A stretch of 64,000 nucleotides of DNA, taken from contig OU612067.1 in the NCBI GenBank assembly GCA_914767715.1, forward strand, positions 32,586,162 to 32,650,161. The letters are read 5' to 3'. The position numbers and the translations under genes were made by a program. Positions 10,243 through 63,736 of this stretch are shown here, piece after piece; the stretch's first letter is position 1; every line of letters starts with the position of its first letter. The notes under the pieces are model-generated. The model saw only the letters and a list, made by a program, of their open reading frames with translations, ran no database searches and was not told the DNA's origin. Source of the stretch: Membranipora membranacea (Eukaryota; Bryozoa; Gymnolaemata; Cheilostomatida; Membraniporidae).

Positions 10243-13200
10243 ATGCAGCAACATATCTTGAGCATTATCCTGGTATTCACTGTGCAGATTCTACCAACAA
10301 AACGTAAGTCTACTACAATAAACATTATTCCAGAGCTTGTGAAATTAAGAAGCTTGATTTTCCTTCCTTTCCTAACGCCTCTGATGAAAATCACTACAAA
10401 TACAAGTCATATTGGATGTTTTTCAATTCATCCAGTCTCCTGTCAGGCGTGCGTCAGTTGCCAAAACCTCACATTATGTTAAACATGTATGATACTGTTT
10501 TGCAGAGGAGAAAGCACGTACGTTTTGTGAGCAGAACGACTCCACCGACGTTGACGTATCAAGTCATCCTTTGGGATCTATGACAACTCCTCAGTCTGCA
10601 GTTATTTACAATAACTGTAACATTCATCTAACTGGAATACCTGAAGGTTCCTGGTGTGGCATTGAATTCACAAAACTGGATCTTATGGATGGAGATAAAC
10701 TAATCATACAGTCTGGGATAAGTGGTGAAAATGTGGAGATAGGCAATATGACAATCACAAACAGGTTCTACATTCCCACAATGACTAATGCACCAACCTC
10801 AAATGCAGCATCAAACAGAATAAAATTTCTATTCATTCCGTCCGCTGGAGCTGGATCTGAGACCTCAAGTCAAATAGCACTCACTTACAAAGGTATGTAT
10901 CCTACGTTTCAACTAACTAACACCTAGCTCAGCATCCTATTAAAGAATCCGATTTCCCCAGTGAGACAGCTCTCTCATACACAGGTCAGTGCATTGTTTG
11001 AACAATGATTTCGCTTGTGTGATTTAAAAAAAATTAAACAATACAATAATCTTCAGTCTTCAACCACAAGCTCCAAAATTTGACCCATTTATCTGTTTGA
11101 TAATGTTGTAGTGATAAAAAAACTGACACCCGATAGCAAATAGTATCACAGATCCCCAACCAATGTCTGCGTTAACCAGGGCCTATACTCTGTAGAGGAA
11201 GGTACCTCCTCCGTATTGATGTCTCTTTGTCAGTACTCCAGTTGAACGATCAAGAGCTGAGAAAAAGGTTTTTGAGTTTTTTTTAAATCAGAGCTGGATC
11301 GTGTTTCCATCATTTTGTTGTATATACTTGTTTCCTGTTTGGTGTGGTTTGCATGCAGGATGGAATAATATAATATGACAGATATCTTTAGGGGCAGAGT
11401 TGGAAACTTTTGCATTAGTCCAGTTTGTCTTGATTAGCATGATGTTGTTTAAGAATTTAACCTAACGGTTCCCCTGTTTTCCATTTATGTAGTTTTGAAG
11501 TATTGAAGACCACACACAAAATCTGATGATTGGTCTAAATCTGGTATCATATTGCTATGATACGCTATGATACACGCTATGATATGAATAAGAAAAATAA
11601 TAAACTGTATTGAGTTGTCATAACAAAACATTCTTTGCCTAAAAAGTGCATTCTCGGCTCGACTAAATTTTCTAAAATAGACCAGCAAGCCAAGTTAATT
11701 ATCGTAACTGTACTTGTTGTGAGTCTAGATGATTTCCCTCACAAGGTAATCTTTCAAATTGCCTGCGTATTGCGGTATACAAGTTCGCTGTACAAAGCCG
11801 TAAGAATTACCTTCCCCTATTCGGAGGGTAATAATAGATGATCATTTTGAATTTGAATTTGAACTTTTCCAAATAGCTCATAATATGTTTCTAGTTTGTA
11901 TCTTAATAGTCAGGAGAGGGTGCGGGGGGGGTTGGGGGGTGAAACAACCAAGTGGGACTCGGACCCACATCTCCTACATCACCAATCGCCTGGCAGTGAA
12001 TAGCAAGCGCGCTAACCGATTGCCCCATCTCACCATCCCTCAAAAAAAGGTTTGATGGTGTTAATTAGCATGTCCGCTATTCACTACTCATCAGTTGTGT
12101 TCTCCCAATATCTTAACAATCATTAAAGAGGTATGCTAAGATATTCCGACCCACCATAAGAGTATTAATTAGTATTTATGCATTAACGAGTTTTAGGCAA
12201 CAAGGGTGTTGATAGCTAACATTAATGACTAATCAACAAGGGATGATTATATAACCGATTTCAACATGCAAAAACTCAGGGTCTAGAAGGACCCAGAGTA
12301 TGTTATCTCCCCCGTGAAAGATTAATAAAGTTGATTTGTTGCAGTTTATCGGTTATATCATTCATTATTTATTGTTTTTGTTTGTTTGTTTGTTTGTTTG
12401 TTTTGCAATGAGTTTGCCTTGATATGAACAGTGGTTATTTTTTGCAATCCTATACACTTAACTGTCCCAACAGGTTATAATTAACTGCCGATAAAACCAT
12501 TAGAGATGTGTCCAATTGTTGATTGTAACATATATGGTGAATTATATGTAATTGCCTATTTGCGAAAGTTACTGCTTGCTGAATGATACTTACAGCTATC
12601 ATTCCTTCTGCCAATTATTTGTAAGATAATTCCATATTTCAGTTGCCCATGTCATGGATGAGACAAACCGAACTACGAACATAAGCATCCGGCCAGATAG
12701 TCGAGGTTTTATCGTAAGTCATAAAGAGTTTGACTTTGGTACAACTAGATATAGAAGTGGATTACGGAGTACTAAGCCTCTTTCTCTTATGGTCGGTGAG
12801 CGTGCTGCGAGAGTTGATATAAAATTCCACTATATCAATCTGAGACACACAATGACCGAGGCATGTGACAGTCACTTAAAGTTTGACACCGTGAGAGGAT
12901 ATACAGATGATTATTACTTTGAACTCTGTGCGCAAACAACTACAGATATGGACTGGGACTACCATCTATATCCTTTTGTCTCGGGAGGAACTCAGGAAAT
13001 CAAGCTCACATTTGAGAGTTCCCAAGCAACAATTCAAGGATATGGTGGATTCTTGTTAGAGTACAGAGGTGAGTGATACATATCTCAAAGACCAAAATAG
13101 TTTGGCTTGTGTTTAGTTTAGATGAGAGAAGTAAATTACACACAAGAGGAATAGTTCCCGTTCTTACACATGCTGGAATTCTAATATTTATAACAAGCTA

Positions 13201-19607: not shown

Positions 19608-22600
19608 ATGCGGTTGAGTCTTATATTTCTTGTTACTCTCTGTGTCCTCTCAACAAACTCAGTCATCTACGATGGTAAGTTTCAACATCACATGGTCAAC
19701 AACCATATCTCCATACAAAGTTGAGCAATAATGTGATTGAACAGACATCGATCATTACAGGCAAAGTCTTTATTGAGTAATACAATCACTATATGCTGTG
19801 ACAGCTGCAGATTTTTGGGCACTTTATTATGTAAATGAAGCCTTCAGATCATCAAACTATGAGGTCATGTTTGATCGGGAGATAGGTATGTTATTTACTG
19901 TTTGTGTAACTTATAACTTAAAACCATTAGCCAGGTGACGAGGAGATATGTTTTTGTAAGAATAGTAGGAACAGATTGATCCTTCTCTTGTGTTGTGTCG
20001 AGAATCTGAGTAAGTATCAAAGTGCACTTATCTCCCCATGTCAATATCTTACAATCCTCCCCTTTTCTTATCAATCTTCTTCATGTCGAGGTTTTAATCT
20101 TGTTTTTATTTTTGCTTCATAGATGTCGCACAGATTTGTGGTAACAATGGCTCTGTGTACCAAACGATAAATACATCAGGACGCGTACAGACACTCTACG
20201 CTGACTTTGAGCACGGCCTGATAAGTCAGAATCAGACCAGGCAATACAGACAGACACATAATTGCTTCCTTACGCTAGTGGATATCAAATTTGGATCATG
20301 GATATTGGTTAATCTAACAGCGATTGATATCCTGAACAGTGACAATAGGTACCCAGAAATATTAATATCTAACGACCAAGGCAGCGTCAAACATTCTGTC
20401 ACTACTGACAGTGCTATAGGTACGGCCATGTTCTTCATAGTCGATGAAAGTTTCCTCAGCAATGAGAGATATGTCCTAAGATTCCGACTATCATTCAACA
20501 AAACAACAAATAATCAAGCTATAAGAGTTGTCTTCACCTATATCAGTATGTATACAGCCATATTCCTCTTTCTTTATATTCCTTTGCGTTGCATTGCATA
20601 ATGATTCCCTGAATTTGAAGTTTGCATATCACTATCAAAGTTCCTATACCATGGTCAGATGAGAAGTAGAAAGTTAAAGTTTGACACAGTTTGCAATAAA
20701 GCTGCATTTGTTAGTCTCAGGCTGCGCTGGGCCCATGTAAGGCCGTAGACCCCCACACGTAAGGTGTTTTGCTTAGGTTGGGAACGGTACAATGAACTGT
20801 GGGAGTTAGCTATAAGAGAAATTAGTGAGATGCGCAATCGGTTGGCACGCTTGCTATTGATGGCCACACTGGGGGGGGGTTTACTGTTCCCTCTGGTGGA
20901 TATATCTTCTGTGTCGTCATTGAGAAATCCTTTGAGAGTTTTGGATTCCACATCATACAAAGCAAAGCAACTTCATTCTACGCCTCAATGCTAAGTACTA
21001 AGTAAGGAGAGGAAAGGTACCAATATTGTAAGACTTTTGATTGAAATGCAATGTATACGGGTCTACATCTAATTTAAATTAGGCAAATAGAGCTCTTACA
21101 GGATGCGTCACTCTAAATCTCATCAACACACAACAAACGCAAATGATTACTAATTATGTCAAACCTTGGTTGACATGTCCTTAGAAATTTTAATTCTGTA
21201 TATATGAAAACGTAGCTCGAAGAAGTAGAGATCAGAGAATTCATATATATCCCATATATCCTTATAGGCTACATATTTATCCACGGAATGTGTAATGATT
21301 TGATATCCATGATACCATATTGAGGCGGACATAATATTCAATCATCAGAACAGTTACTAATATATTATGTTGTTGACATTTTTGGTGTCTTTGAATGTAT
21401 TTTTTTATCTGATGTTCTTCCCTTTCGTTCCTGCTTTATACTGGTAATCAACTGCGGCTTAATGTAGAGGGGAGCGTCTATAAATATAGGAATAAACGGC
21501 ACATTCTAGTCCTGCTCAGTACCTGTGTAGGTAGATATTTATGGCTATAATTTGGCAAGAGTGATTCTCCTAGTATCAGCTAGTAGTATTAGCTTTAATA
21601 CGCCCGAGGAAAGCCCATTCTGGCTCTTAATTGTGATTTAATATTAATTTTAGCCGCTGACATATTATCTGGAGGTCCTGATAACCCCAGTACTCTCAAT
21701 TCAGCCCAAGGATTCATTGTCAGTCACTCTGCGTTTAACTACGGACAGGATATGGGCGGAGACTACAGTTCGGAACCAATCTCTGGGTCTAAGATACTTC
21801 TTCTCACACCTATATCACATATAGTTGTAAGATTTCTATACTTTGATCTCGCTGATGGTGATTATCTCAATCTCACACTGACGACGAGGGAGGAGACAGT
21901 AGGATCTGTGTACTTCTGTGGAGGGAGGGAGTTAGATCTCTCAGAGAGTATCTCTCTCTACAGTGGTCAGCTTGAGGGGGAGCTCGTCTTCAGCTTCAAC
22001 TCTACAAATAAATCAAACAGCTCTGGATTTTTGATAGAATACTCAGGTTTGACTTACATCTCGTTTATTCAGCCACATATTCTGTGGTCTGTGGAGTTTT
22101 ATTTCGGCTTTTTAGGCAAAACTGAGGGCTATCTTACCTAAATGTCCAACTGTCTACAAGTGAATTACAACCACGATCAGATTTCCCCAATATTTAGCAT
22201 TCCTTGCTATCTTTGAGACTGAAAAGTGATATTTCAATGAAAAAATAGCCGACCACCTTTACTTGTGATTCAATTTACAATTTTATCTTCCCTGTGACGT
22301 ATTATTAATATAAAGTCAATTCAAGTTAACAAGAAACAGTGACAATAACTCATCTCAAAAAGATATGATAGAAACCTGCTGATCTGGAAATGTCAATATT
22401 TTTTAGTTATAGGCTGTGGAAATGGTGGCTGTAATGACAGTGTATCAATTCAGCTCCGAACTCACAGACCATCAGATTCGCCCTGTGAAGTCAACACAAG
22501 AGCCGATAGCCCCATACACACAGAGATAGTGAGCCTACAGTCAGTGCTGAGCTGTGTAGGGGCTGGACTGGGTGTGATCCTGCTGCTGACTGTTATCATA

Positions 22601-24700: not shown

Positions 24701-29994
<5,294 letters not shown>

Positions 29995-31076
29995 TCTCAC
30001 TCCTCAACCTGATGACAGAGAATATATACTATTTATACTATATATATATACTATATATGTATACTAGATCACCCTGCTGGCTCGGAGAGCATGAAGAAAC
30101 AATACACATCTACAATGGTGACTGAATATAGGCAATTCTTGTTGCATCAAAGTTTAATATATTGTCATTGACAAAACTGCCAACAAAACCAGGAGCCACT
30201 CATATTTAATCCCAATCATAATTTATTTTAAAATGGATGAATGGGTAGGTAGGTAATATTTTGCTACAGAGGCAGGCAGGCAGAGAAATTTCATTATTCA
30301 GTCCTAATCTCCATGACGAAAAATAAAATCATCACAAAAATTCATCTTATCTCTCAATATATAATTATATATATATAGGAAAGCTAAGGTAAAATCAAAA
30401 ATCCAGATGGAGTGGCCCAGTTATGGGCAGAGTTTAGTGAATTCTGCATGTAGAGTAAATATTACAGAGTTTACAGTACCTTTGGCTAATTGAGAACCAA
30501 CAAGGATCACTACTTCAGACTCAGATTAACTTTCCGGTTGCGATGCTTGAACCACTAACTTGGTGTTGAAAGACTGTTGCGTTAGGAGGTAGCAATATTA
30601 CTCACTCGTCTCTACAATAAATGAATAAATGAAATATGAGCTGCCAGTCTAATGTTGTAGAGTAATAAAATAAATTGGAGATTTCTGAACTATAAAAAGT
30701 CACCTGATGTTAAGTTGCAGATGCAGTATATCCATTTATACTGGTTTAAACAATGACATTAACCAAATTAAGCTTATTTCAAAGGTACACATGTAACCTT
30801 CAGCCCTTGCGTCGCAACTCAGAAAAGGAGTGAAAAGATGTGAATACCAACCCGGACCAATGCAGGCCTGATAACTCCTAAACCATACCTAAACAACCAC
30901 ACCCATCAACACAGTCATCCAATCCAAACATCCGATACAACAATTCCCATCATATCAAGGATCTGGTCTAAAGCGCACCCGATCTTGAAATTTTGAACAT
31001 GTTCCTCAGCCGCTTCACGGTTTCTCATTGAGAAAACACACAATCAAGATAAGACCAACATGAAAGCACTATCACA

Positions 31077-40717: not shown

Positions 40718-43700
40718 TCAGTTCATCAGCGGCATATTGAAGATTGGTCCAACATGTCCTGAAAATAAAGCAACAAAGCTTTACTATCTAGTCTTCTAGT
40801 GTTGAATAATCATGTGCGGTAAATGGAAGCCAGCTCAAGTATTGAACCCATGCACTGGTTTTAGCAAATGGCTCACTTTTAGTAGTTCCGCAGTCAAGCT
40901 CCTCGAGTATTAACAGATCAGCTTCCTAATAAGGATATAATATTATCAATACTCACCGTCTTTAGGGAAGGTTTTCCTCATGCCCATACAGGACTTAGAG
41001 TCGACAGACAGAGAATTCTCCTTAACACTGATATCTGTCTGTAGTTGTGACTTGGTCTTCATCAATCTAGCCATAGCCATCTCAGAACTTCTCAGCTTAT
41101 CCTTCAGAGTACGCACCGTGTCTCGGATCTCGTGTACCTCGGCTACAATTCTATAATACGGATATCGAGGTAATAAGATCCTTATAAGAGGATTGAAGAT
41201 CGCTATCATTACTCAACATTGTTACAAATAAAGTTTCTATTGTGAATATAGAATAATATATTACTTACTGCTAGTACCTATAATCACATAGCCTTATTAC
41301 TCAGCTTCTTCCTTAGTTATGGCTGCATGACAAGGGTAACAATCACATACCAGGATTTTTTTACAGATTCAACGTTGGAGCACTTTCATAATATGATACA
41401 TTTGTTCTTTATATTTCTATAAATTTTATATATGGCTGCCAACTTCCAGTTCGCAATACGACTAGATACATGTCATGATTAAAAGAAGGTGAATTGCTTG
41501 GTGAGTATGCTAGGGATGAATCCAGCTCACAAACTTACCCATGCATTGGCCTATCCTTACACAACTCAACGTTGAGTCTCTTAGTTCTGTCCTCTAGCCT
41601 GGTCTGAGCCACCTTCATAGGAGCTTCCTTGTCTCTGATAGCCTGTCGTAACAGCTCTATGTTACGATCCATATCCATAATCTCTTGCATCACCTATATC
41701 AAAACAGAGTGGATCTATCAGACTAACACAACAAACGTCAATAGTCAACCAGTTGGTCACTTTCGATAGTTTTTGGTGCTTCACACTTTGCATAGCACTA
41801 CCATGATTTTTTCATACTGTCTGACTGTAATTATACAAGTTACAATTCTGTTATAACCAACATGATGTAAAAGGACTCAGAAGCATCTCGCAAACGAATT
41901 GGAGCATGAAGAGTATGTGTTAGCAAAATTGTAATAAATTATATCAAAAGCGTGTGTGGGAAAACAAAGCAATATTTTTGGGGTTGGCCTGGGTATCGGA
42001 ACTCTTTGCTATTTCAAAAGAAAAATATTTCTATTGTTCCCAAGATTACATTGTGTTGCTCCAAGAAACCACAATTAATCGGTTGTTATCTCCACTTACT
42101 CTCTGTAGATGGCTCTGTAGTTTCTCTCTGGCGTCGGCTGTCTCTCTGATTCTGGTACTGAAGGAGTTGTTGACAGTGTTAAACTGGCTCCACATGGCGT
42201 TAGCTGTTGCTCTCAGACACTGGTCGATCTCACCTCTCATCCTCTCAGAGGCAGCTCTCTCTCGCTGTGACCGGGCGATGTTATTACGTGTGAATCTCAT
42301 CCACGAGTCAGGGGTGCTCAACCTGTTACAAATGTATACAATAAGTGTCAATAGCTAATAAATTTGAGCTAGTACTTTTATCCAATTGATATTTAGATAT
42401 CGTTGATTTTATTGCGCTAACTTCAGGATATCATTGCTGCCCTTGAAAAACAGTTGTGTACAAACAGTTGAATGTACCAAAACAAAACAACTTCGAAGAT
42501 TTTGCTTCTTGTGCATTTCCTTGCAATGACTACTATTTTCATCACTCACGTGTTATCGACATTCTCGATACCAGGGAAGTATCCGATGCCGATGCTGCCG
42601 TTCCTCATCTGGTACATTCTGTCGTCGATGTGCTCAGCGTGGTGCTTGTCTTTGGCATCCTTGTCCATCTCATGAAGAGCTGCTCTGTTCATCCTGTACA
42701 AGAGGACATCAAAACAAATCAATAAAATTCAGATGCTAATTTCGGCCAGTATAACTATGGTTGGGAGATACTGTGGAGGTCGGAGTAAGTATGATTCATA
42801 GAATGCTCAATGTGGCTTCCATGAATATCAATTACGCAACAGTTTCACTTCTGAGAATTGGCTGTCACGATTCCTAAGGTACTTATTTGTGAGATGTTTA
42901 CTTACTTGAGCTGAGCGTGAGATTTAGCGATAGTTTTTTTCATCCTGTCCTGACATTGTTTGATGACGTCGACTTCCTTTGTGAGTTGTCTCTCCACGTC
43001 GTCGTGTACGATATCGATACCGTGTCTCTTCTCTCTGTGCATAATACACTCCTCTGATACATGCATAGGGTTAGCTGTAGCCCTGTACGCCTTCTCCAGT
43101 ACCCGGGTGTGCTCCTGAATAAGGCGGGGGTGTATTATTATTATTATTATTAATATTATTATTATTACACGTTTTTATCAAGGTTTCTATGTAAATATGC
43201 TACAAACAAATGTGATGTGATGAAATTAGAAAACTCTTATGGTTTATTAGATTTTATGGATATCAAAACCAAGAGAGACATTTGCTTTATTGCTGGCCAT
43301 TTACATTTCTCAGATGATAAAAAATTGCGTCACAGTTTTGCCCATTTTCGAAAATGAGAATTCTCATTTCAGACCGGGTAATAAAAAAAGCTACCAACAC
43401 AGAGATATTAAGTCAGAAATTGGTGAGCTGTATACCTGTAGGTTTTCTATCTCATTCTCCATAGCTCTGCTCTCATTGATAAGCTCCTCCTTCCAGAAGT
43501 TGATGTCATTCTTACGACTCTGAAGCTTAGCGGAGTTATCCGCTTGTCTTCTTCTAGTTCTCTCATCTGTCTCCTACAACACAAATATCACCTGATGTTA
43601 AAAACTGACCCACCTCACCTCCATTACCTGCAGCTAGTTCTCTCATCTGTCTCCTACAACACAAAAATCACCTGATGTTAAAAACTGACCCTGTCCACCT

Positions 43701-44843
43701 GCCCACCTGCCCACCTGCCCACCTGCCCACCTGCCCACCTGCCCACCTCCATTACCTGCAGCTAGTTCTCATTGATAATATATAAGATATGTTAGACTGC
43801 TAGCGTTCTTCACATAATAACTCGCTAACCCAAGAAAATCACATTGTGTTTGACAACAAACACTCAACTATATCGATGATGATGCTGCAATTTGGAGACA
43901 GAAGCACTACCATAAACTTAGAATTTAGATTATATCATGAAAATTCCAGCCATTTCTGACATCGAGATCTGACCACAGATATATATTTTATATGAAGTCA
44001 CACAAAGTTGTCCGCTCTCACCTTGACAGCTCTCCATGCGTCCGCTCTTATGTTATGACCTAAGGACCTCTCTCTGTCAGACAGGCTATAGTGTAGCTTG
44101 TTACTGTGATCCCAATCTCCCTCCGAGTAACGAGAGTATACCATGTTCCTGTGTAAGATACAATATACTAGATAATATTCTACAAATTATGTACTTGGGA
44201 GGGACATCAATGTAAGAACAGTAGTTATAGTTGAAAGCAAAAATTATGAGCAATTGCAATATGTAAGAAGCAACAGTTTAAAACTTCACTTCTGCACCAA
44301 AATAGACATCGTTTTCATGTTGCCTTTGGTATTATGTTCTGGGTTTTCAGTTTATTGCAAATCAACAGTCTAATGTAAACGGAATTCGAAAGTAGCAAGA
44401 AGGAGAGAGTTTTACTCAGAGTTTCCTATATCAAATATCATTGTATACTGTATATAAACATATATATTTTATTCTGGTAATTTTGTCAAAGAGAAATTAC
44501 TAAGTACTGTGGAAACGAGGCTCTGTCATATAATACTATTAAGAATCTTAACCCTCTGTGGCACAAAACTCTCCAAAAATCTGTTGATTCTCGTCCTTAG
44601 CATTAGGAACCGAGACCTTCCTTTAACATAACAGGGATGTAAAATATGGTCTTCATATAACTTCTTGTGTTATTAATACCTTGCTGGGTTGTAGACATTC
44701 TTAGCATGGCTGACATCAATCAATCCGGTGCTGTTATTCATCGACTGAAACTTAGCCGCAGATCCCACTCTGCCTCCAAACATGGGAGGGGCAGAGGGTG
44801 TCCTACACAGAGGTGTCATAGATTCATACGCCATCACCGACAT
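40718..44843 (-). CDS. TEKT3: Tektin (tektin-3/5-like)
   Basis: Nine exons on the minus strand, 5' to 3': 44680-44843, 44022-44148, 43436-43573, 42906-43114, 42550-42693, 42100-42322, 41539-41693, 40957-41150, 40718-40758; 1395 nt, 464 residues, a normal tektin length. Tektins are alpha-helical filament proteins inside ciliary and flagellar doublet microtubules. Visible matches to the tektin-3 type are HREKRHGIDIVHDDVE, GIGYFPG, PDSWMRFTRNNIARSQRERA, ANAMWSQFN and CMGMRK. The tektin signature RPNVELCRD appears as RLNVELCKD, with Pro to Leu and Arg to Lys. The start is the first ATG of exon 1, just after an acceptor-like TTTTAG, so one or more 5' UTR exons upstream are likely; a donor CTTGAG|GTAAGC near 47237 is a candidate. 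The gene indicates ciliated or flagellated cells. Orthology to TEKT3 rather than a TEKT3/5 ancestor is not settled. Confidence 0.92.
43555..43776. repeat. 80-bp duplication across the tektin exon 3 acceptor, plus 8-bp repeat
   Basis: The first 19 bases of exon 3, its acceptor GTTGTAG and about 55 bases of intron are duplicated once (43555-43634 and 43635-43714, about 80 bp). A third partial copy at about 43746-43776 follows an array of about seven GCCCACCT units (43693-43750). The second copy keeps a complete AG acceptor and exon start, so it is a potential alternative 3' splice site. Confidence 0.75.
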
Positions 44844-48963: not shown

Positions 48964-51900
48964 CTTAACAAACAAACAAACAAATAATCACAACCAAATG
49001 GCATTAGATAAGAGTCCAGTAAAAATCCACTATGATCATAAAATCGGCAACAGTAAAATAATACCAGAGGTAGAGTCAGAGGGGCATAGTCAGGGGCACT
49101 ATCAGGGGCTGAATCAGGGACTGAGACAGAGTCAGGTGGGAATCGGGGGTAAAGTCAGGGTCAGTGAATGGGGGACAGAGAGGAGTCAGGGGCCAAGGGC
49201 AGATTCAGGGCGGAGTCAGGGACAGTGTCAGGGGCGGAGTCAAACAGTTCAGGCATCCATCTTACATATCTGAGTATGATTTAGTGGAGTCAGATAAATA
49301 AACAGCCTGGGTATCGGCTATACACCATCACTGAAGACATTGATAGGATCATTTGTTGGTTTCTATTGTTCATGCCCAAAATCAATTAAGCTGCCAGTTA
49401 GAATACAATAGAATCCCTCGATAAAATTGCTTGGTGATGGTCAAATTGTTGATAAGTTAAGACATGGGGAAAAGAAACAGCAGTTCATCTAGTTACGTGG
49501 TCTTGAACTGACATTGAACCCAACTTGGTTTCAGACCAACGTAAGATTTCCTCACACAAAATTTTATAAGATAGTGATAGATCATTAGACGTTAGAATGA
49601 TTGTTTATTGTTAACCCAGGCTGTTTATTTACCTGTAACAATTTGGTTGCAGTATTCTCTTTAGCCATTAACATCAGAATTGTAAGGCAGATATATCGAT
49701 CTTTTCAGGAGGATCGGAAGAGATTTGGTCTAAATCCGGTCTGTCTTCAGGATTACCAGACAGACGGTAAGCTTTCATAGCAGCATTATACTTGATATAC
49801 TCGGTCCAGGCTGAGCCCAACCCCCGATCCCTCTCAGACTCTGGTTACAGGGAGAAAACAGCTAAACCATAGCCTCAGGAGTTAAACCATACTCTCAGGG
49901 ATAAAACAGTTAAACCATAGCCTTGGGAGCTAGACCATACCCGGGGGGTCGTCGGACCGTGGTAAAAGCCTGGGGGCTCAGACTAGAGCTAAACCATAGC
50001 CTCAGGGATAAATATGTTAATCAGAGTTTTTCAGAGTGTTTAATTAAGTATTGAGGAAACTGGGTACCATTCACCCGACAGACATAGATAGGGAGGAGCG
50101 CACAGAGCTATTTGGGTTCAGGCATAGAGATTTTGAGATTATCAGCATCATAACCATATTTTTGTGGTAATTCTGTGTGAAAATGTTATATATTCGAACC
50201 TACGAATGGTCAAATGAAAATATGAGAGTTTAAGGAGCTCACCTGTTTCCTCCGGTTTTATCGAGTTTTTCTTTGGTGGCGGTACATCGGGCGTAACTGC
50301 AATACAAGCATTTGATGAAGTGAACAACGATCCAATTTATACATTACTTGCTCACCTTACAACTACTCTACTAGCTAAGCTATCCACAAAATTTATAAGG
50401 AGGAGTTGCCCCATTTCTATAAGGTGACAGACAACTACTATTTAAGTCAGAATAACTCGATGACGTTAGGTGATTTGTTAATACATGAGTTGAGATCATA
50501 CTCAATAATAATATACACTTTATTTCTATTCAGATCCCGACAACTAGAATGTGCTTACATTAATGATTAAGATCCACTCATCTATTAAGGTAAGGGTGGG
50601 CGGCAAGCTAGGCTATTGTCCGGAGAGCTCACCTCCTTTTGCAGCATGTGCAGTGACCGGGATTCGAACCTGCAGTTCTCTCAGATTGAGAAGCTCGAGT
50701 CCTAACCACTACACCACCCTGCCTGCCACTCTACCACTATGTAGACTCAGTACTGAGTTCAAAAAAAGATTGAGTGCTCAGGGCTTCTTAAGGTAATGTC
50801 AAAGACCGATCCGAATATCAACATATCATATACCGTTGGAAAGCTGCCGAGCTACTGAAAACGAATATCTGAACAAAAATTTGATTCGATGACGTTGTGT
50901 CATTAAAGGAAGGAAATGAGGCAGAAAACGCTGTTTTTGTCAAAGCAGATGGGGGAGTCAAATTAATTGCAAGAAATTTCAATTCAGGTGGAATGTATAC
51001 TTAGAGATTGAGTTCATAGTAAAATTTGATTTTCTTTGATATATGACTAGTCTAAACTGACTTTTTACGTCACGCCATACAACGCATTTTTTTTGGTGAA
51101 GCCGTGAAAATATGTGAAATTTCAATCATTAATTAAGAACAGATCATAGGCTCGAAACAAAATTAATTATTATTTTCCCTTAGAGTACACTTCAAATGTC
51201 ATACATATTGACTTTCAACAAATTAGCTTGCATATTGCGAAAACAGTAGACTCTCGAATACACCTGATATTTTTCGCAACTTTTGCATAACGTCAAATGT
51301 GCTGTCCAAATGACCATTATTGTGGCCAAACAAAGTTTTTTTGAAAGTTCTCACATACGAAGCCGCTTTTATTACCCATGGTGCACGCAGGAAATGCCAA
51401 CAGATATTTTCACTGCACCTTCGTTTTTCTTGAATTTAACGCAAAAGAATGGCCAAAAACACCTCAAAAGTCCCAAAAAATAGCTGTTTTTTTGGCATTC
51501 TTTTGCGTTAAATTCAAGAAAAACGAAGATGCAGGGAAAAAATCTTTTGGCATTTCCTGTGTGCACCATGGCTAATGAAAGCGGCTTCGTATGTGAGAAC
51601 TTTCAAAAAAACTTTAGCTGTATTCGAGAGTCTACTGTTTTCGCAATATGCAGACTAATTTGTTGAAAGTTAATATGTATGACATTTGAAGTGTACTCTT
51701 AGGGAAAATCATAATTAATTTTGTTTCGAACCTATGATCTGTTCTGAATTAATGATTGAAATTTCACATATTTTCACGGCCTCACAAAAATAAATGCATT
51801 GTATGGCATGACGTAAAAAGTCAGTTTAGACTAGTCATATATCAAAGAAAATCAAATTTTACGATGAACGCAATTTCTAAGAATGCATGCCACCTGGTTT

Positions 51901-53318
51901 GAAATTTCTTGCATTTAATTTGACTCCTCCATCTGCTTTGACAAAAACAGCGTTTTCTGCCTCATTTCCTCCATAAAATGACACAACGTCATTGGATCAA
52001 GTTTTTGTTCAGGTATTCATTTTCAGTAGCTGGGCAGCTTTCCAACGGTATATGATATGTTGATATTCGGATCGGTCTTTGACATTACCTTAATAGTTAA
52101 AACTGCACTTGCTAAGTAGATAGTAATTCTCTTAGACTGTTAAGACAGGCGCTGTAAGGATGCGGGTGAATCAGATATTTATCAGTCCAGAGCGTCAGAC
52201 TCTAATGACCACTTTCGAATCATTCTATGAGTGAGAAGTAGAGACGTTGGGCTGCCTGCCTGTTAGCATACCTGGTTCATCAGGATCTGTGAGGACCTCA
52301 GATTGTTTCTTCTTTCTTATGATGATCAAACAGCGGCAGCAGAATATAAGAAGCAGCAGTATCAGTATTATAATGATCGGTAATGTGTATAAGAATACAT
52401 CGAAAGCGGTTATCCCCTAAAAATGTAAAACATCTTACTGCATTTAAGTGGTGAACAAAAGTAACAACACTATGAACTGCGGTTTACAAAATCAGGTTAT
52501 CACCAGTTTTCTAAGACTCAGCTTAATTACCCTCAGGGCTGTATTCTATACTGCCATCCCTGCCCAAACAGGAACTGTTTTCTACCTTCGGAAATCAATT
52601 CTTTGGATTTTCCCAGGTCTTGTTGTGAGAAAACTATTTTAGACTTCTCCAATCTTCTCAGCGCTGGTGTATAAGATGATAGATAACAGTTGGCAGCATA
52701 CCAGTCCCTTTGACTAGTGATATTAAATGTAGCCTCATGGAACTCAGTCTTGTCATTTATATCTGTTTTGTATAAGTTAGAAGATATATATATATAGAAT
52801 TATTCACTGACCATGGCACAATTCATAGATGCCAGGTATTTTCTTATTTTTCAATTCGCTCGCTAAAATTTGATAAACTTCTTCCAGGAGGAAAGCCCTC
52901 GCATTCCTCCTCCCTCCATTCCAGGGGGCAAGCTCCGGGTCCCCGCCAGGTCGCCTACATTAATCATCTAGACAGGGCTTGAGCGGGAGTTCATTTCAAA
53001 CCATGGATACAGCCCTGATTTGACGAACTCACACAACACTCACTTCCTATTAGAGGGGATTCTCTCTATGGTGTGTATGATGATAATGTCGAATATGTGG
53101 GTCTAACTTCAATAATAGTTAATATCTACCTCCTGATACGTCTCTGTAGTAGATGAGGAGTTGCTCTGTGTCCCTTGAGTCGGTGTAACTGTTGATTGTC
53201 TCACAGTTGTTGATGGCCTTGTAGATGGTGGCACAGTTTTGCTGATATCAGCTGATTGTCCATTGACAAGAAGGAAAGGAAATACAGCAGCAAAGGCAAA
53301 TGTACAAAAGTATAACAT
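48800..53318 (-). CDS. Small mucin-like single-pass membrane protein with two possible last exons
   Basis: Unrecognised protein. Exons on the minus strand: 53130-53318 (signal peptide and a Ser/Thr-rich ectodomain of about 40 residues with NSSS), 52272-52416 (membrane helix from FDVFLYTLP through Ile/Leu-rich LILCC, then an IIIRKKK anchor) and 50243-50296 (Pro/Lys-rich, PPPKKN). Then there is one of two terminal exons, 49674-49840 ending ISALQF, or 48800-48963 ending in a Lys-rich tail. Both terminal exons are entered in phase 1, both are open to a stop, and they resemble each other (SAWTEYIKYN against SRWTKYRRYM). The product is therefore a type I protein of about 170-185 residues with a heavily O-glycosylated stalk and a variable cytoplasmic end. 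No enzymatic domain. Intron 2 carries a 1.3-kb palindrome and a SINE. Junction phases all agree, which supports the model. Confidence 0.7.
49075..49250. repeat. Degenerate GTCAGGGGC-type repeat
   Basis: Many imperfect copies of a 9-18-bp G-rich unit (GTCAGGGGC, AGTCAGGG) between the two alternative terminal exons. The open frame across it is low-complexity and not supported as coding. Confidence 0.65.
49674..49840 (-). other. Alternative terminal exon (proximal, acidic)
   Basis: Acceptor TAACCAG; phase 1 entry; encodes an acidic segment with SAWTEYIKYNAAMKAYRLSG, NPEDRPDLDQ and SDPPEKIDI, then stop TGA at 49674-49676. Using this exon ends the protein, so it is mutually exclusive at the protein level with the distal exon. 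Confidence 0.65.
49855..50012. repeat. Degenerate repeat (TTAAACCATAGCCTCAGGGA-like)
   Basis: About five imperfect copies of a 25-30-bp unit directly upstream (in gene sense) of the proximal terminal-exon acceptor. Confidence 0.65.
50636..50738 (-). mobile_element. tRNA-derived SINE
   Basis: On the minus strand: GGTGGTGTAGTGGTTAGGAC (A box type), an anticodon-arm-like hairpin CTTCTCAATCTGAGAG, then GGTTCGAATCCCGG (B box). This is a well-preserved tRNA-like SINE head. No matching acceptor stem was found, so a functional tRNA is unlikely. Confidence 0.65.
50789..52094. mobile_element. 1.3-kb near-perfect palindrome (fold-back transposon)
   Basis: The two arms, about 50789-51465 and 51470-52094, are reverse complements over about 640 bases with scattered mismatches. 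They meet at a spacer of a few bases near 51468. Both ends read TTAAGGTAATGTC and GACATTACCTTAA, so TTAA borders each end, as expected for a TTAA target duplication. No real gene lies inside; open frames at 51283-51575 are mirror images of each other. It sits in intron 2 of the mucin-like gene. This is a non-autonomous hairpin element; a piggyBac-type mobiliser is suggested only by TTAA. Confidence 0.8.
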
Positions 53319-54501: not shown

Positions 54502-57500
54502 TTAGTAATCACAGGCGAGTTCACCCTGGTTGTCTCCCACGTTATATTTGACCCAGTCTCTAGCAATAGGAGCGGAGAGCATCTCGTTATTCATAGCGAA
54601 GGCGTCAGTAAGCGACAGAGCCTGTGGTGTGAGGTCTCTACATAAATCAGCAGCCCGAGCTGAGATGTTCTGAGCTACTTCAGCTGGGAGCACTCCTGTA
54701 TGGGAAATAAATAGAAGGTCAAGGTAAGAGATGAAGGTGGCGGCATCTGATAACACATCCATATCTCATAGTATGAGCTCATCATTCATGTATAGATGAG
54801 GAATTAAACTCCGTGCTAACCTACAAAATGCCTCCCTTTATATTAACACCTAAGACACTCTCTGATATAAATATTTGATTTGTAGAAGGTACGGCTTACT
54901 CTTCAGAAGAAACTGATTGAACTGTGATGGCTTGTTTATGCTAGAATAAGTGTGCAAACTCTGCCTGGCACTGCCACCATCCCAAGTGGAGGCCGGGCAC
55001 TCAAACTAACATTGATCAATAAGACTTATTACAAGACCCAGGCTGGTTCAGTATAACACAGCCTGACAGAGACAGACCATAAGCTGTAAGCTGATAGTAT
55101 ACAGAGTACTGGCCTCTGACCCACCTGATAGTATGAGTGGTCCGAGGTTATTCTCTATAACACTGAGTAGATGAAGGTGATAGAGCTGAGACAGCGCAGT
55201 CTTACATGAATCATCCGCTGACTCAATCACTGAGGCAAAACTCTCACTAACAAGTCTCTCTCCTACAAACCATACCATACATATGAGAGCCGCTTACAAG
55301 TGTCAGAGGCTTAATAATGTGATGATGAGCCAGCTTGCAAGGATGGAGGTTAATATGCATAATTAGCATTTGTATCTCTGACAGATCAAGTCAAACCAAT
55401 CTAAGTAACTAATGATGTGTGCACAAACCCTCACGCTAGACTTCAACTAAGGGTGGACAACTCAAGTCCGTTAGAGGATACTTTGGCTACATGTATTTAT
55501 CCACGCTCTATCACTCCAAGATTTACATACAATTTCACTAGACCAGTGAAGCCATATATTGCTAATATTTTCAAAGGTTGTCCTAGAGACAAAGCAAATC
55601 TATGGGGCAACCTTTTAATATCAGGAAATTCCAAAAATATAACATTTTAATAATGATGATGATGGTTGAGCTAGTTTTCCATATATTTGGCTTTAGCTTA
55701 TCAGAAGTAAGAGTTCATACCGTAAGCGTGAGCGGCAGCTTGAACAAGATCACTCTCCTGTAACATCCATGTGGAGAAGAGATTCTCCTTACCAGCAGAC
55801 ATGAGCTTCTTACCGAGTGTCATAAACAGTACGTTCTCACTGGAAAATACAGGGAACATACAGTACGTTCTCACTGGAAACACAGGGAATATACTGTCCA
55901 TTCTCACTGGAAAATTAGGGAGCATACAGTAGTGTGCCAGTGGGAGATTCAGTGAATATACTCATAGATAGAACTATATGCAATCATAGTGAGCAATTCA
56001 AGAACGTATTTGTCTAATTGAAAGACCAAGTGAGTGATAATTTTGAGCTATATGGTGGTGATAATTTTAAAGGATCGTTCTAATTGGAAGACTCCCCTGA
56101 CCCTACACAAATCAGCAAGTTGCTCCACTGTGGTGTCCTTTGATCGCAGGATTTAGATGTTTGACTACTTGACTCATCCCCCTACAATGTTATCGGTATG
56201 TCACAGCCAAGTCTATTTTCACTGACATAATGGCAGCGATTAGTGGTTGGTCACCATGGAGCCGTGCCCAGGACCCTTCTTCTATTATCAGTGAGAGGCA
56301 AAGTAAGCTTACCTGTGTTTACAAATTATTAAATGTCCATTATTAGTATGTCAACAACAATGACTGAGCTTAAAGCAATCAGACAATAAGCCTTTGTTCT
56401 AATCCTGCTCACATCCAGATTCATTGTATGCATTATAATGTGGTGAATAAAGACTTTTGTTAATTTTGAAATTACAGTCAATCACTGACAGGAGGAACAC
56501 TAGGAAAGCTAGGGGCCTGAATATCATGCAGTTTGAAGTTTATCTGTCAACGTTGTCTTTTCTTGCAGTGATCAAAATTCAGCCACAACAGACTTGACAC
56601 CCCATCTGCCTCACTCGCACTGTTGGTATTTAGTATGTAACGATACATCAAAAGAGCCTGCCCGCTCTCAATTCGAATGATTGAATGCTGTTTCAATGAT
56701 GCGAACAATGTTGCTTATTTTGTGCTGAAACTTCTAAAAGTTCAGTCGTGGTTATGATGGACTCAGGCCTCCCAAAATGTAGGTATTTTACTTGTTAGTG
56801 AGTACACTGTGTAGGTATTTACCTGTTAGCGAGTACACCATGTAGATATTTAGGGTCATTGACATCAGGTTTGAGTTTCTCTACTTTGTTAGGTTTGAAT
56901 GAGGAGAGCCTCTCTTTAGCTACTTTCTGCATGAGTACAGAGTTGTCTCCCTCGGCAGTCATAGCAGCATGTGATAATCCAATAAATATACCTTCAGATA
57001 CAATACATTCCAAGTGTTAGCAACCTATGCTATTAAATACTGAGGGGACTAGCATCATGTTTCAGACTAATTAGAGATCGTGTTCAGGATATTCTAGAAT
57101 TCACATTAGCAGCTTATGGTATGAAATACTCCGCATACTGGGATCACGGCATGAGCGTCACCAAGGCATCCTATAAGAGTGAATGTGTGCAGGTGATTAT
57201 TACATGATTTATTATTTACATTCTGGATAATTCATTTTTCAAGAGAGGCTTTTCAAGGGAGTTCATATCGGTTAACTTCAGCAAAAAATCATCTTATCCA
57301 ACCCAAGGAAAATTTCGTGACACAGATAACTACTGACCGAATCTGTTAGCAGCGAGATAACCTTGACCTCCACATCTCTCCCTAGAGACAGATGAGACAT
57401 TCTCTACATTCCAGCCACACAGAGGTTTAATAACACAACACATGGTAACTATCTCCTGATGTTCGCTACCGTCTGCTGCCTGGTTAGAGTATCGGTCCTA

Positions 57501-60500
57501 CATTAGGGAGAAAAGATTATGGATTATGCAAGACGTAGAGATTTGGCGCTGGCAAATACTTTTTTTTGCCAAAAACGATGAGAAGACCTACACACACAAA
57601 TGCGGCCTTAACCCGACAGTGTTTGATTACATCATGATACAACGAGAAGACTTTTGCAATATATAGAAGCACACAATCAGGAGGATCCCAATTCCTGTTC
57701 CCTCAGTGAAGAGGATGCTCAGGACAGGATTAGATGGAGAAGTCTTATAGAGCTAGGCCTCTGGCAGACACCTGCTACCCGTACAGGACAGAGCAGAGAT
57801 AGTTAAGGACAGGTGAGGATAAACTCACTGTAAGGAGAACCCTGAGATCTGGTGGGTAGATGAATGTTATCAGGGTGGGGGGGGGGGGGGGAGGAGGTGA
57901 GTCGACAGTGGTATTTGAAACCTTAGTGAAACTTAAGGCTATTCAAAGACGTATAACTTTCGTAGTTTCCACAATAATTGAGTGAAAGCTAACCTTAATT
58001 CTATCCAGTCCAAAGTTAAGAGCATAAGTCCTGGCTAGCAGAGGTAATAGGGCTCTCTGCTGAAGTTGGTAATGTAAGATAGCTGTAACAACAAAGAATT
58101 AAAATATGGTGGGATATGTGATCATTATAGCCCAATCGATTTAATCATAATGATCACATGGCTCAATTGATTTTTGACTCGTTATTATATTTCTAATCAG
58201 TTGAGCCATAATGATGAGTAAATTTGGAGTTACTCTCTCTCTGAACTAAAACCTCAGAGAGAGGACAACTCCAATGTAATTTGCAATTTTGAGCCTACAA
58301 AGACTCTCAGCCCTAAAAAATCAAGACAGAGGCATCGCTAATTAAAAGGAAGAAGATATACACGATACCCACTTACAGTAGACATATATACACGATAGCC
58401 ACTTACAGTAGACATATATACGCGATACCCACTTACAGTAGACATATATACACGATACCCACTTACAGTAGTCATATATACACGATACCCACTTACAGTA
58501 GTCATATATACACGATACCCACTTACAGTAGTCATATATACACGATACCCACTTACAGTAGTCATATATACACGATACCCACTTACAGTAGACATATATA
58601 CACGATACCCACTTACAGTAGTCATATATACACTATACCCACTTACAGTAGTCATATATACACGATACCCACTTACAGTAGTCATATATACACGATACCC
58701 ACTTACAGTAGACATATATACACGATACCCACTTACAGTAGTCATATATACACGATACCCACTTACAGTAGTCATATATACACGATACCCACTTACAGTA
58801 GTCATATATACACGATACCCACTTACAGTAGACATATATACACGATACCCACTTACAGTAGTCATATATACACAATACCCACTTACAGTAGACATATATA
58901 CACGATACCCACTTACAGTAGTCATATATACACGATACCCACTTACAGTAGTCATATATACACGATACCCACTTACAGTAGTCATATATACACGATACCC
59001 ACTTACAGTAGACATATATACACGATACCCACTTACAGTAGACATATATACACGATACCCACTTACAGTAGTCATATATACACGATACCCACTTACAGTA
59101 GTCATATATACACGATACCCACTTACAGTAGTCATATATACACGATACCCACTTACAGTAGACATATATACACGATACCCACTTACAGTAGACATATATA
59201 CACGATACCCACTTACAGTAGTCATATATACACGATACCCACTTACAGTAGTCATATATACACGATACCCACTTACAGTAGACATATATACACGATACCC
59301 ACTTACAGTAGTCATATATACACGATACCCACTTACAGTAGTCATATATACACGATACCCACTTACAGTAGACATATATACACGATACCCACTTACAGTA
59401 GACATATATACACGATACCCACTTACAGTAGTCATATATACACGATACCCACTTACAGTAGACATATATACACGATACCCACTTACAGTAGACATATATA
59501 CACGATACCCACTTACAGTAGACATATATACACGATACCCACTTACAGTAGTCATATATACACGATACCCACTTACAGTAGTCATATATACACGATACCC
59601 ACTTACAGTAGTCATATATACACGATACCCACTTACAGTAGTCATATATACACGATACCCACTTACAGTAGTCATATATACACGATACCCACTTACAGTA
59701 GTCATATATACACGATACCCACTTACAGTAGTCATATATACACGATACCCACTTACAGTAGTCATATATACACGATACCCACTTACATATATACACGATA
59801 CCCACTTACAGTAGTCATATATACACGATACCCACTTACATATATACACGATACCCACTTACAGTAGTCATATATACACGATACCCACTTACATATATAC
59901 ACGATACCCACTTACAGTAGACATATATACACGATACCCACTTACAGTAGTCATATATACACGATACCCACTTACAGTAGACATATATACACGATACCCA
60001 CTTACAGTAGACATATATACACGATACCCACTTACAGTAGTCATATATACACGATACCCACTTACATATATACACGATACCCACTTACAGTAGTCATATA
60101 TACACGATACCCACTTACATATATACACGATACCCACTTACAGTAGACATATATACACGATACCCACTTACAGTAGTCATATATACACGATACCCACTTA
60201 CAGTAGTCATATATACACGATACCCACTTACAGTAGTCATATACACGATACCCACTTACAGTAGTCATATATACACGATACCCACTTACAGTAGTCATAT
60301 ATACACGATACCCACTTACAGTAGACATATATACACGATACCCACTTACAGTAGTCATATATACACGATACCCACTTACAGTAGTCATATATACACGATA
60401 CCCACTTACAGTAGTCATATATACACGATACCCACTTACAGTAGACATATATACACGATACCCACTTACAGTAGTCATATATACACGATACCCACTTACA

Positions 60501-63500
60501 GTAGTCTGATTTTCCTGTAGGTCCGACGGTGAGTCTTGTAGCAGCGTATCTCATAGCTATAGCTAATGCTGCCTTAGCCACACCTTGAGACATAGAAGCT
60601 ATACATATACGTCCTGATAGGAGCTGATCAGCTACTGTCAGAAACCTACAAGGGGGAGATCACTAAGTAAGTCATCATTATACAGATTAGTTCAGCCGTC
60701 AGCAGAGGGTGTAATGTATCAATATTACAGGGATGTCAGAGTAACGCTGTCACTTTCTATCTCAAAATAAACTACTCTGAGAATTAAGTGTCCACACAAT
60801 TTATAGTGTGAGGGACCATCGATAAATTATAACATCGGCTATTGATTATTGACCGGCAATAATAAAGTATATATTTATATAAGATATTGGGATATAACAG
60901 AGCACTATTTCCTAGTTACAGTGGACCGATGAGTTAGCTGTAGAGTCTTCTCTTACCTGGCGCGGCCTCCAGCTATAGGAGAAGAGAATACACCATTCTC
61001 ATCTACATCCGAGAATTTGTTGAGCAGATTCTCTCTGGGTACTCTGACATTGTCAAATATGAGTTTGGCGTTATCTACTCCATTAAGCTGCATCTTATAA
61101 CCCATATCCTCAACTCTTACACCTGAAAATATGAATCACATATAAATCAATGAATTCACAAGTATACAAAGTATGTATCCCTGTCCTGAAGAAGTACTAT
61201 GCATGTACAAACCACCTCCCCTATTTGCTATATATTTTGTCTGATCTCAGAAACCATACATTGTTACCAGGTATCTCGGTTGATCAAAATAAACAGATAC
61301 TTACACTTTCCAAAACTCCATCTAGATAGAGTATATCCATTATTATTACTATTGCATTACTATATAAAGCATATATTAAGAGGTGTGGTCAAAATCTACA
61401 CACAGACAAACCTTCATCTTAGTTTGTATTATATTAATTGTAAGATTTAGAGTAGGGGGGAGTGACCTACCCGGCATAGTTTTAAGTTGCTCATCTCTGA
61501 TTCTGACTACCACACCATGTATACCATTGTCTTTACCATCTACCATCAATCTATCATAATATAAAATAATAATTATACATACTGGTAGGGGAGAGAAGTT
61601 ACAAAGTATACATTCACATACAAGTCGAGCTTTCTAAAGATAGACCTCTGAATACCTGGTCAATATTTTTTTAAAGATATTTGTGGATATCTGAGATCCG
61701 AACTATAATCAATGATCAAAGTTTCACCGATGTGCTTATCGGATGCATACCCACCCTGTGGTTTGTTAAACTGACCGTCACTTGTAACCCAAGATTTAAC
61801 ACATTTCTGATATATAGACCAGTATATAATGTAGAAGAGGTACACACACACACACATACACACACACCTGGCGAATACCACACAATGCTTAGCATGTACA
61901 GCTCCGTTAGTTATCCAGTATTTTTGAGACAGAGTAGTAGGACTGTTTATTATCCATTCTGATGTATTCTTATCATATATAGCTGTAGTCTCCATCTCTA
62001 CTGCATTATTACCTGATTATTAAATAAATAATGAGTGTACTCGTTATAGTTACTCAAGTAGGAGGCAACTCGAAATCTACAGGTTGTATATTCAAAATTA
62101 TATTACAAACTTTAATGTCGTGTATTGATACAGACATTACTCAAGTTTGAAATGATAGAAGCTTTGAGGATATAATTGTTTAGAAGCTTAGAAATGAACC
62201 ACAGATAATTACATAGGCATCTAGAGATTCGAATGAGTTTCATCTATAGAGTAGTAGTTTGCAGCATACATATGTTATTAAAATCTAGTTTTAGTTTTGC
62301 CTACCATATCCTAACTCAGTCAGACCGAAACAGCCGACATCCTCCAGAGTATCGATTCCCTTGAGGAGTTTACTGTGGTGTCTCTCTGTACCAAGCTTCA
62401 GCACAGTACCACCTGTTATAGTAAGATAATATGAGATTTTAGAATACAATACTGAATCTGATACTGAACATATAAAGTGGGCAATATATAAAAGAGAGAG
62501 AGATGATATGATATGAGCAAGAGTAGAGAGAAAAGATTGTAATTTTCTCAATTCATCAGTAGATTAACCCAAGTTTATCTTCGTCATGCAATAACATGTT
62601 GTGAAATATTGACAGTAGAAAGGCAGTGAAGCTGACTGCAACATTAGGCAAAGGATGTGCAGTGCTTGTCATACAACAGAAAGCTAACGGATAAACCGCT
62701 TGCTGTACAGTTACTAGTTATTAGTTTTTTATTCCAGCCAGGCAGTTCTCATGCTTGGCCAGCAAGCAACAAACTTGATACCCTGCTGACATGACAAAGA
62801 GTCACATAGTTAAAAGACTTTGAAAGTGAATCAAGGAAGCTTGATGTGTTATACTCATACTAAACTTATACTGATAATTAAATTTTAAGATGTTGAATGT
62901 TGACTGGGATATAGAGCACCCAGTCTCAGTTATATAACCACCGCTCTGTTGTACCTACCAAACAGATTAAACTGGACAGTCATCTTAGTAGCCATAGCTG
63001 AGTCCACCACTGCTGCCAGCTCGTGTGCAGCAAATATTTTACGAGGATTGTCATTAAAGTTGAGTACAGAGATAAATCCGCCATCACAGATTCTCTGTAA
63101 TCTTTGTAAGGCTACCTCCCTCTCCTCTTCTAGTGGAATGTTATATCTACATAATAAAATCATATAGTGATAAGATGTATCTACATAATATCGAGTTAAT
63201 ATACAGAATATTAACAATTATACATGATGTAAATGTTAAATATGACCTATAAATATGATCCTATATCCTAGAGGCGTAAGTATTAGCGAGACTTCATTTT
63301 GGAGGTGACTAAATATTGTTAGTTCTTACTAGTGCAAAGAGGCTCTTTTACCTCCTGTGGAAACTTTACTTCGGCAAATTAAAAGATTATCAATGAGAGA
63401 CGGTTTGTAACTACAGAGTGTAACTAAATCTCTAGGCTGAAGCTCCTAGTCGTAGTTTGAAACCTTTTACCCCCTGAAGTCTTACTTAGGAGTGAAGACA

Positions 63501-63736
63501 GGATCACGTAAGAATTCTCTCATCTCTTTCCTCATCTCCAGATTATCATGATCGAGAATCTCCGTCATCTTATCCATATTAAAGTGAGGCTTAGGCCAGT
63601 CCTCTCTTAGAGCTGAGGGACTGTGGTTGTTAGCCAAAGAGCTGTACTGTATACTGGTGCTGGCTGCAGGCACCGTTAGATTGGACATACGAGCCTGAAG
63701 TGCCCATCTCACCGCCTTACCAAAAGCCAACGCCAT
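54502..63736 (-). CDS. Acyl-CoA oxidase, plant ACX3-like type
   Basis: Oxidises acyl-CoA to trans-2-enoyl-CoA with FAD, passing electrons to oxygen and giving hydrogen peroxide; normally peroxisomal beta-oxidation. Thirteen minus-strand exons: 63486-63736, 62959-63146, 62305-62412, 61868-62012, 61471-61550, 60957-61122, 60500-60645, 57994-58082, 57338-57497, 56823-56991, 55721-55839, 55125-55262, 54502-54695; 1953 nt, 650 residues. Matches: [32 protein letters not shown] (FAD/acyl region), [59 protein letters not shown] and [15 protein letters not shown]. These resemble plant ACX3 more than human ACOX1-3. The C terminus is CDY, with no PTS1; an N-terminal KAVRWALQA is close to the PTS2 pattern except for Ala at position 2. 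The start is the first ATG in frame; upstream exons beyond the window cannot be excluded. Intron 7 is a splice-site minisatellite. Confidence 0.9.
55827..55960. repeat. 33/34-bp tandem repeat spanning the oxidase exon 11 acceptor
   Basis: Three clear copies and a fourth degraded one of a unit that, in gene sense, reads pyrimidine tract, TTTCCAG acceptor, TGAGAACGTACTG exon start. Copy starts are near 55827, 55861, 55894 and 55927. The innermost copy is the real exon 11 start. The others lie in the intron as decoy 3' splice sites. Using the next one shifts the frame and meets a stop. Confidence 0.8.
56779..56858. repeat. Duplication across the oxidase exon 10 donor
   Basis: The last approximately 29 bases of exon 10 and its donor (GTGTACTCGCTAACAG|GTAAAT) are repeated in the intron as GTGTACTCACTAACAAGTAAAA. 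The intronic copy retains a GTAAAA donor-like site. Extending the exon to it would add an immediate in-frame TAA. Confidence 0.75.
57871..57889. repeat. Poly-G tract in oxidase intron 8
   Basis: A run of about 14 G within GGGTGGGG...GGAGGAGG context. On the transcribed sense strand it is poly-C. It may be length-variable. Confidence 0.6.
58355..60507 (-). repeat. 30-bp minisatellite of about 73 units, each containing a 5' splice site
   Basis: It fills nearly all of oxidase intron 7 (58083-60499). In gene sense the unit is ATG(A/T)CTACTGTAAGTGGG followed by TATCGTGTATAT. The first unit is the true exon 7/intron 7 junction: exon 7 ends ...CAGACTACT and the intron begins GTAAGTGGG. Each unit therefore copies about 7 exonic bases plus 23 intronic bases, including a strong GTAAGT donor. 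I count about 73 GTAAGT sites. Most units are 30 bp; several near 59780-60120 are 23 bp and one near 60240 is 28 bp. Two unit types (GACTACT and GTCTACT) are interspersed. The array ends inside a unit at about 58355 and passes into unique intron sequence. Confidence 0.95.
61845..61868. repeat. GT microsatellite at the oxidase exon 4 donor
   Basis: In gene sense exon 4 ends GCCAG and the intron begins directly with GTGTGTGTGTATGTGTGTGTG. Several overlapping GT dinucleotides could act as the donor, and length changes would alter the splice site. Confidence 0.7.

Follow-up and report, generated by a model that had tools for sequence, protein, structure and literature searches.

The window, a 64,000-nucleotide stretch (C3:32586162-32650161) of the 339.3-Mb Membranipora membranacea assembly, contains an acyl-CoA oxidase (ACOX) gene on its minus strand, and intron 7 of this gene carries a tandem array of 73 copies of its own 5′ splice junction (Table 1). 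The identity of the gene was supported by Pfam (ACOX_C_alpha1, 9.5e-31) and by acyl-CoA oxidases in the PDB (best match 5.3e-63), and the closest protein among those listed is from another bryozoan, Bugula neritina (86% identical). Exons 1–11 were placed by script, while exon 13 and the exon 12 end at 55125 were read by eye and their junctions then located. The array-bearing intron 7 measures 2417 nt, compared to 292–983 nt for the ten other ACOX introns measured.

Other features lie in the same window. A tektin gene was found at 40952–44147 (PF03148, 2.2e-41 on joined exon pieces), with an 8-bp array, CAGGTGGG (minus strand, 43690–43748), just upstream of its duplicated exon 2 acceptor. A Kelch-domain gene at 24704–30003 (best Kelch family 1.2e-30 on joined exon pieces) presumably resembles KLHDC4. 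The near-palindrome at 50788–52093, whose arms (50788–51274 and 51607–52093, 487 nt) are 93% complementary and which holds a nested inverted pair (51332–51459 and 51488–51615), looks like a foldback-type mobile element from its sequence. Finally, the plus-strand open frames 3336–3728, 12705–13073 and 21653–21988 share a GFIVSH motif and possibly represent a local gene family; a Pfam search of the first and third gave no match.

Table 1. Positions of the ACOX gene, its intron 7 array and the neighbouring junction duplications (window coordinates)
Feature	Position	Strand	Basis
ACOX gene	54502..63736	minus	exons and homology
ACOX exon 7, last 7 nt (GACTACT) supply the exonic bases of the repeat	60500-60645	minus	alignment and script
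ACOX exon 8, acceptor side of intron 7	57994-58082	minus	alignment and script
ACOX exon 13, stop at 54502	54695-54502	minus	by eye from sequence
Donor minisatellite, exon 7/intron 7 junction repeated 73 times in tandem	58354-60506	minus	TRF and script unit count
Donor 1 (GTAAGT), yields the conserved protein	60494-60499	minus	alignment and script
Donors 2-9, in frame, +10 residues per step, without stop	60254-60469	minus	script
28-bp unit, shifts the frame and makes TGA	60239-60266	minus	script
Donors 10-73, any use leads to a premature stop	58371-60231	minus	script
Tandem duplication over ACOX exon 10 donor, 31 bp, 2.4 copies	56777-56852	minus	tandem-repeat finding
Tandem duplication over ACOX exon 11 acceptor, 33 bp, 3.2 copies	55826-55931	minus	tandem-repeat finding and junction check
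Tektin exon 2 acceptor with the adjoining ~20 nt of the exon, second copy 80 bp upstream, 39/40 nt identical	43554-43673	minus	tandem-copy check

Structure of the array in intron 7

The array is 2.15 kb long and was described by TRF as having a period of 30, 72.9 copies and 94% matches (score 3854). Its 73 GTAAGT motifs run from 60499 down to 58376 on the minus strand. The repeat unit, mostly 30 bp, reads GACTACT followed by GTAAGTGGGTATCGTGTATATAT, a full unit comprising the 7 exonic nt that end exon 7 and the 23 nt that start intron 7. The tandem units cross the exon–intron boundary with exon bases included (7 nt GACTACT plus GTAAGTGGG), and the splice signal GTAAGTGG is preserved in every one of the 73 units. 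An earlier proposal, that this is a minisatellite of about 73 copies built from the junction between exon 7 and intron 7, is borne out both by the unit, which carries exon end and donor together, and by the count.

Forty of the 73 units are identical and 17 carry a single A-to-T change; five are 23 bp long, each then followed by one of five TATATAT variants, one is 28 bp long, and five carry one further substitution. These five unique substitutions fall in units 56, 64 and 71–73, on the acceptor side, and the variant copies are intermixed, a pattern that resembles minisatellite turnover. That GTAAGTGG is never broken in the 73 copies might suggest selection, but the numbers are too small: with only five unique substitutions, the chance that none falls in GTAAGT is 0.8^5 = 0.33, so the intact motif is no evidence of selection. 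Searching the whole genome for exact copies of the 27-base unit pattern gave 62 matches, all inside the ACOX array. With the exact unit found at one place only, the array does not resemble a dispersed satellite, although diverged copies elsewhere would escape a search of this kind.

Tandem arrays are a known weak spot in genome assemblies, and the array might in principle have been inflated or invented during assembly. We regard this as extremely improbable, as the 2.15 kb contain distinct variant copies and are surrounded by the open exons of a conserved gene. In addition, the assembly's description (PMC10290214) states that tzMemMemb1.1 rests on 66-fold HiFi reads, which makes an invented array of this length unlikely.

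Donor choice and reading frame

Joining donor 1 to exon 8 gives GKSDY-SILHYQ without a gap against Bugula and seven other animals, the eight relatives having been picked from the best 120 proteins listed. This gapless alignment indicates that the normal protein results from the donor closest to the exon. The GKSDY at the end of exon 7 is common to Bugula, whose protein lacks an insert, suggesting that this exon boundary predates the array.

A script then joined the 73 donors one by one to exon 8 and checked frame and stops. Eight of the 72 downstream donors (donors 2–9) give in-frame inserts of 30–240 nt with no stop, and all 64 of donors 10–73 meet one early TGA created by the 28-bp unit. The preliminary description had assigned the normal protein to the first donor, had seen an in-frame ladder with a 10-residue unit in donors 2–9 and had placed a stop beyond the 28-bp unit; the alignment with the eight relatives, the open frames and the TGA agree with it on all three points. 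Its view of the donors as strong did not hold, since position −1 is a T and the modelled U1 duplex reaches −6.5 kcal/mol, eighth of the 11 ACOX donors scored (range −4.4 to −11.1 kcal/mol). The duplex model used what we take to be the 5′ end sequence of U1, and the predicted strength of the array donors is middling.

The open frames raise the question of an isoform ladder, in which donors 1–9 would be used at real levels and ACOX would be made with 0–80 extra residues before a helix. Donors 2–9 are in frame and stop-free, and in human IFI6, donors lying in repeat units yield three mRNA species (PMC4526556). We nevertheless consider the ladder unlikely: the insert is absent in all eight relatives, 64 of the 73 donors give a stop, and the insertion point adjoins a conserved stretch. 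Moreover, no M. membranacea protein by name, and no transcript-derived protein of the species, was found among the best 120 of 2230 matches to the full ACOX protein (identity ≤86%) or the best 120 of 477 matches to the junction region (identity ≤82%).

Junction arrays elsewhere in the genome

The donor word CAGGTAAGT occurs at least three times in close succession at 13 places in the genome (56 matches); the ACOX array carries ACTGTAAGT and hence stands outside these 13. Flanks were examined for ten of the 13 places, and a recognisable exon end precedes the first donor in three of them. For an ITPR exon the alignment runs as far as the last codon at the donor array (PDB 2e-31), and for a MED12 exon it reaches the final residue (PDB 1.7e-6), neither exon having a significant Pfam match; a laminin-type EGF exon ends in the third array (Pfam 8.5e-8). 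In another three flanks (L049, L051 and L052) an open frame runs to the array with no database match (for L051, in databases other than the PDB), and in the remaining four (L047, L053, L054 and L055) no exon was identified. The exonic nucleotides repeated exactly in the best-matching copy number 7 in ACOX, 17 in ITPR, 23 in MED12 and 16 in the laminin gene, which identifies all four as true boundary duplications. Junction arrays like that of ACOX therefore exist in other genes of this genome, namely ITPR, MED12 and the laminin-EGF gene. As to long arrays, the one at L047 (C6:28274074-28276290) has a 47-bp CAGGTAAGT unit and exceeds 2 kb, and a further GTAAGT array of 40-bp units extends over ~2.1 kb near a chromosome end (C1:124954-127119, L010-L025).

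We also asked whether such arrays are in excess. Clusters of three GTAAGT gave 6301 matches genome-wide versus 1222 for TGAATG, 1111 for ATGAGT and 2620 for TGAGTA, these being overlapping matches to which long arrays contribute many each. For the full donor word, an excess first appeared as 13 places against 0 for TGAATGGAC, the single-word counts being 4356 for CAGGTAAGT and 2523 for TGAATGGAC (the two words counted singly). This excess was rejected, as clusters of five composition-matched words gave 0 (TGAATGGAC), 7 at 2 places (TGACATGGA), 11 at 4 places (GAGTCATGA), 52 (AGGTACAGT) and 202 matches (AGTACTGAG, 9 places among the first 100 listed), bracketing the 56 of the donor word. Within the window, four of 38 scored junctions (24 in ACOX and 14 in tektin, with those of KLHDC4 left out) reached 24/40 matches, compared to 5.0% of 1353 other positions (~2 expected), which is not significant. 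The four are ACOX 60499 (32), ACOX 55839 (26), tektin 43573 (39) and ACOX 63146 (25), the last AT-rich and perhaps due to chance; the exon 10 duplication of ACOX at 56822 scored 23, below the cut. Ranking words in the 24 minisatellites of a 264-kb sample found GTAAGT in one versus 0.3 expected, too few to judge.

With no clear excess of the donor word over the five matched words, the other arrays can be read as ordinary minisatellite growth at junctions. The genome is rich in minisatellites, with 24 arrays of at least 2.5 copies and periods of 9–120 in the 264 kb sampled (window included), and the simplest reading is that such a genome also grows arrays on splice junctions, where ordinary growth is tolerated. 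The lack of a clear genome-wide excess also bears on whether the array could serve as a local platform that brings U1 snRNP to intron 7 and modulates ACOX RNA, as a shield from premature polyadenylation or through nuclear retention. The 73 intact GTAAGT sites within one intron would suit such a role, but each has only middling predicted U1 affinity, and we consider it highly improbable.

Origin, tolerance and comparison with known boundary duplications

Taken together, we think it probable that a splice junction seeded the minisatellite, that the array is tolerated as its exon-proximal donor keeps the frame, and that it is near neutral. Judging from the structure of the unit, a short duplication would have copied 7 nt from the end of exon 7 together with 23 nt from the start of intron 7, and slippage or unequal exchange may then have multiplied it to 73 copies, as in the amphioxus ‘mirages’. 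Extra copies would accumulate on the intron side, with the exon-proximal donor preserving the reading frame. Donor 1 is probably the one mainly used, by exon definition, and the remaining donors would be spare: donors 2–9 may give minor or trace in-frame isoforms, and donors 10–73 traces of premature-stop mRNA that are probably cleared by nonsense-mediated decay. Since such growth leaves the outermost donor working, the array can be tolerated, and it most likely does little harm, as the first copy still yields the normal protein; the ACOX array itself is most likely close to neutral. However, when 5′ splice sites are duplicated experimentally, it is often the copy closest to the acceptor that is preferred. 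With such a preference, the late donors of ACOX would be expected to be used heavily and message to be lost, which counts against the neutral view.

The preliminary description knew of no described case with this many donors; that arrays of this kind lack a precedent is not supported. The amphioxus mirages (PMC3087553, PMC3902484) and human 6-16/IFI6 (PMC4526556) are of the same kind. Mirages are minisatellite-like tandem duplications of exon–intron boundaries in the Adh3, TnC, globin and PGBD5 genes; they are length-unstable, at Adh3 even somatically, and normal splicing was reported to be undisturbed by them in the Adh3, TnC and globin genes (PMC3087553, PMC3902484). Like the ACOX array, they (the globins BflGb6 and BflGb9 included) carry splice signals in many copies, and they may be 5′ or 3′. 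On its two haplotypes, globin BflGb6 carries 6 and 3 units, each 150–160 bp long, whereas ACOX has 73 units of mostly 30 bp, a copy-number comparison that concerns this one globin gene, with the copy numbers of Adh3 and 6-16 outside it; the Adh3 units are 10–72 bp. The mirages are backed by RT-PCR and haplotype data, whereas the ACOX array was read from the genome sequence.

In human IFI6 (6-16), three mRNA species are made with repeat-unit donors (PMC4526556, citing Turri et al. 1995). As in ACOX, the repeat units are splice donors at an exon end, and donors 2–9 of ACOX are likewise open and in frame with exon 7. Downstream donor use is reported in IFI6, which is an unrelated gene. Two further systems are more distant. 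Intron gain through tandem duplication of AGGT segments (potato RdRp, PMC4974935) shares with ACOX small duplications that copy splice signals, but it creates introns whereas the ACOX array lengthens an old one. At GYNGYN tandem donors (PMC1779574), a choice among close donors can similarly alter the protein slightly, but these are two donors a few nucleotides apart and not a minisatellite.

A more far-reaching reading is that donor minisatellites at conserved exon ends (ACOX, ITPR, MED12 and the laminin-EGF gene) act as variable splicing dials, whose copy number, differing among alleles and perhaps among the zooids of a single colony, would set the share of mRNA that becomes in-frame ladder isoforms or is lost to premature stops. 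We consider this very unlikely.

Our literature search, with most subscription papers outside its reach, found no bryozoan paper on minisatellites and splicing, and a text search of the Flustra genome paper for minisatellites, tandem repeats and introns found no mention of them. What is new here is the copy number, the phylum (Bryozoa) and the related junction arrays within the same genome; the kind itself was already known. For this species, HiFi reads (ERR6406215), polyA RNA-seq (ERR6464929) and an alternate haplotype (GCA_914767555.1) are publicly deposited (PMC10290214), so that donor choice and array instability could be read from existing data. In summary, the ACOX array is a natural extreme test in which the spliceosome chooses among 73 near-identical donors while the protein must stay intact, and it extends boundary minisatellites from amphioxus to a bryozoan, in several conserved genes at once.
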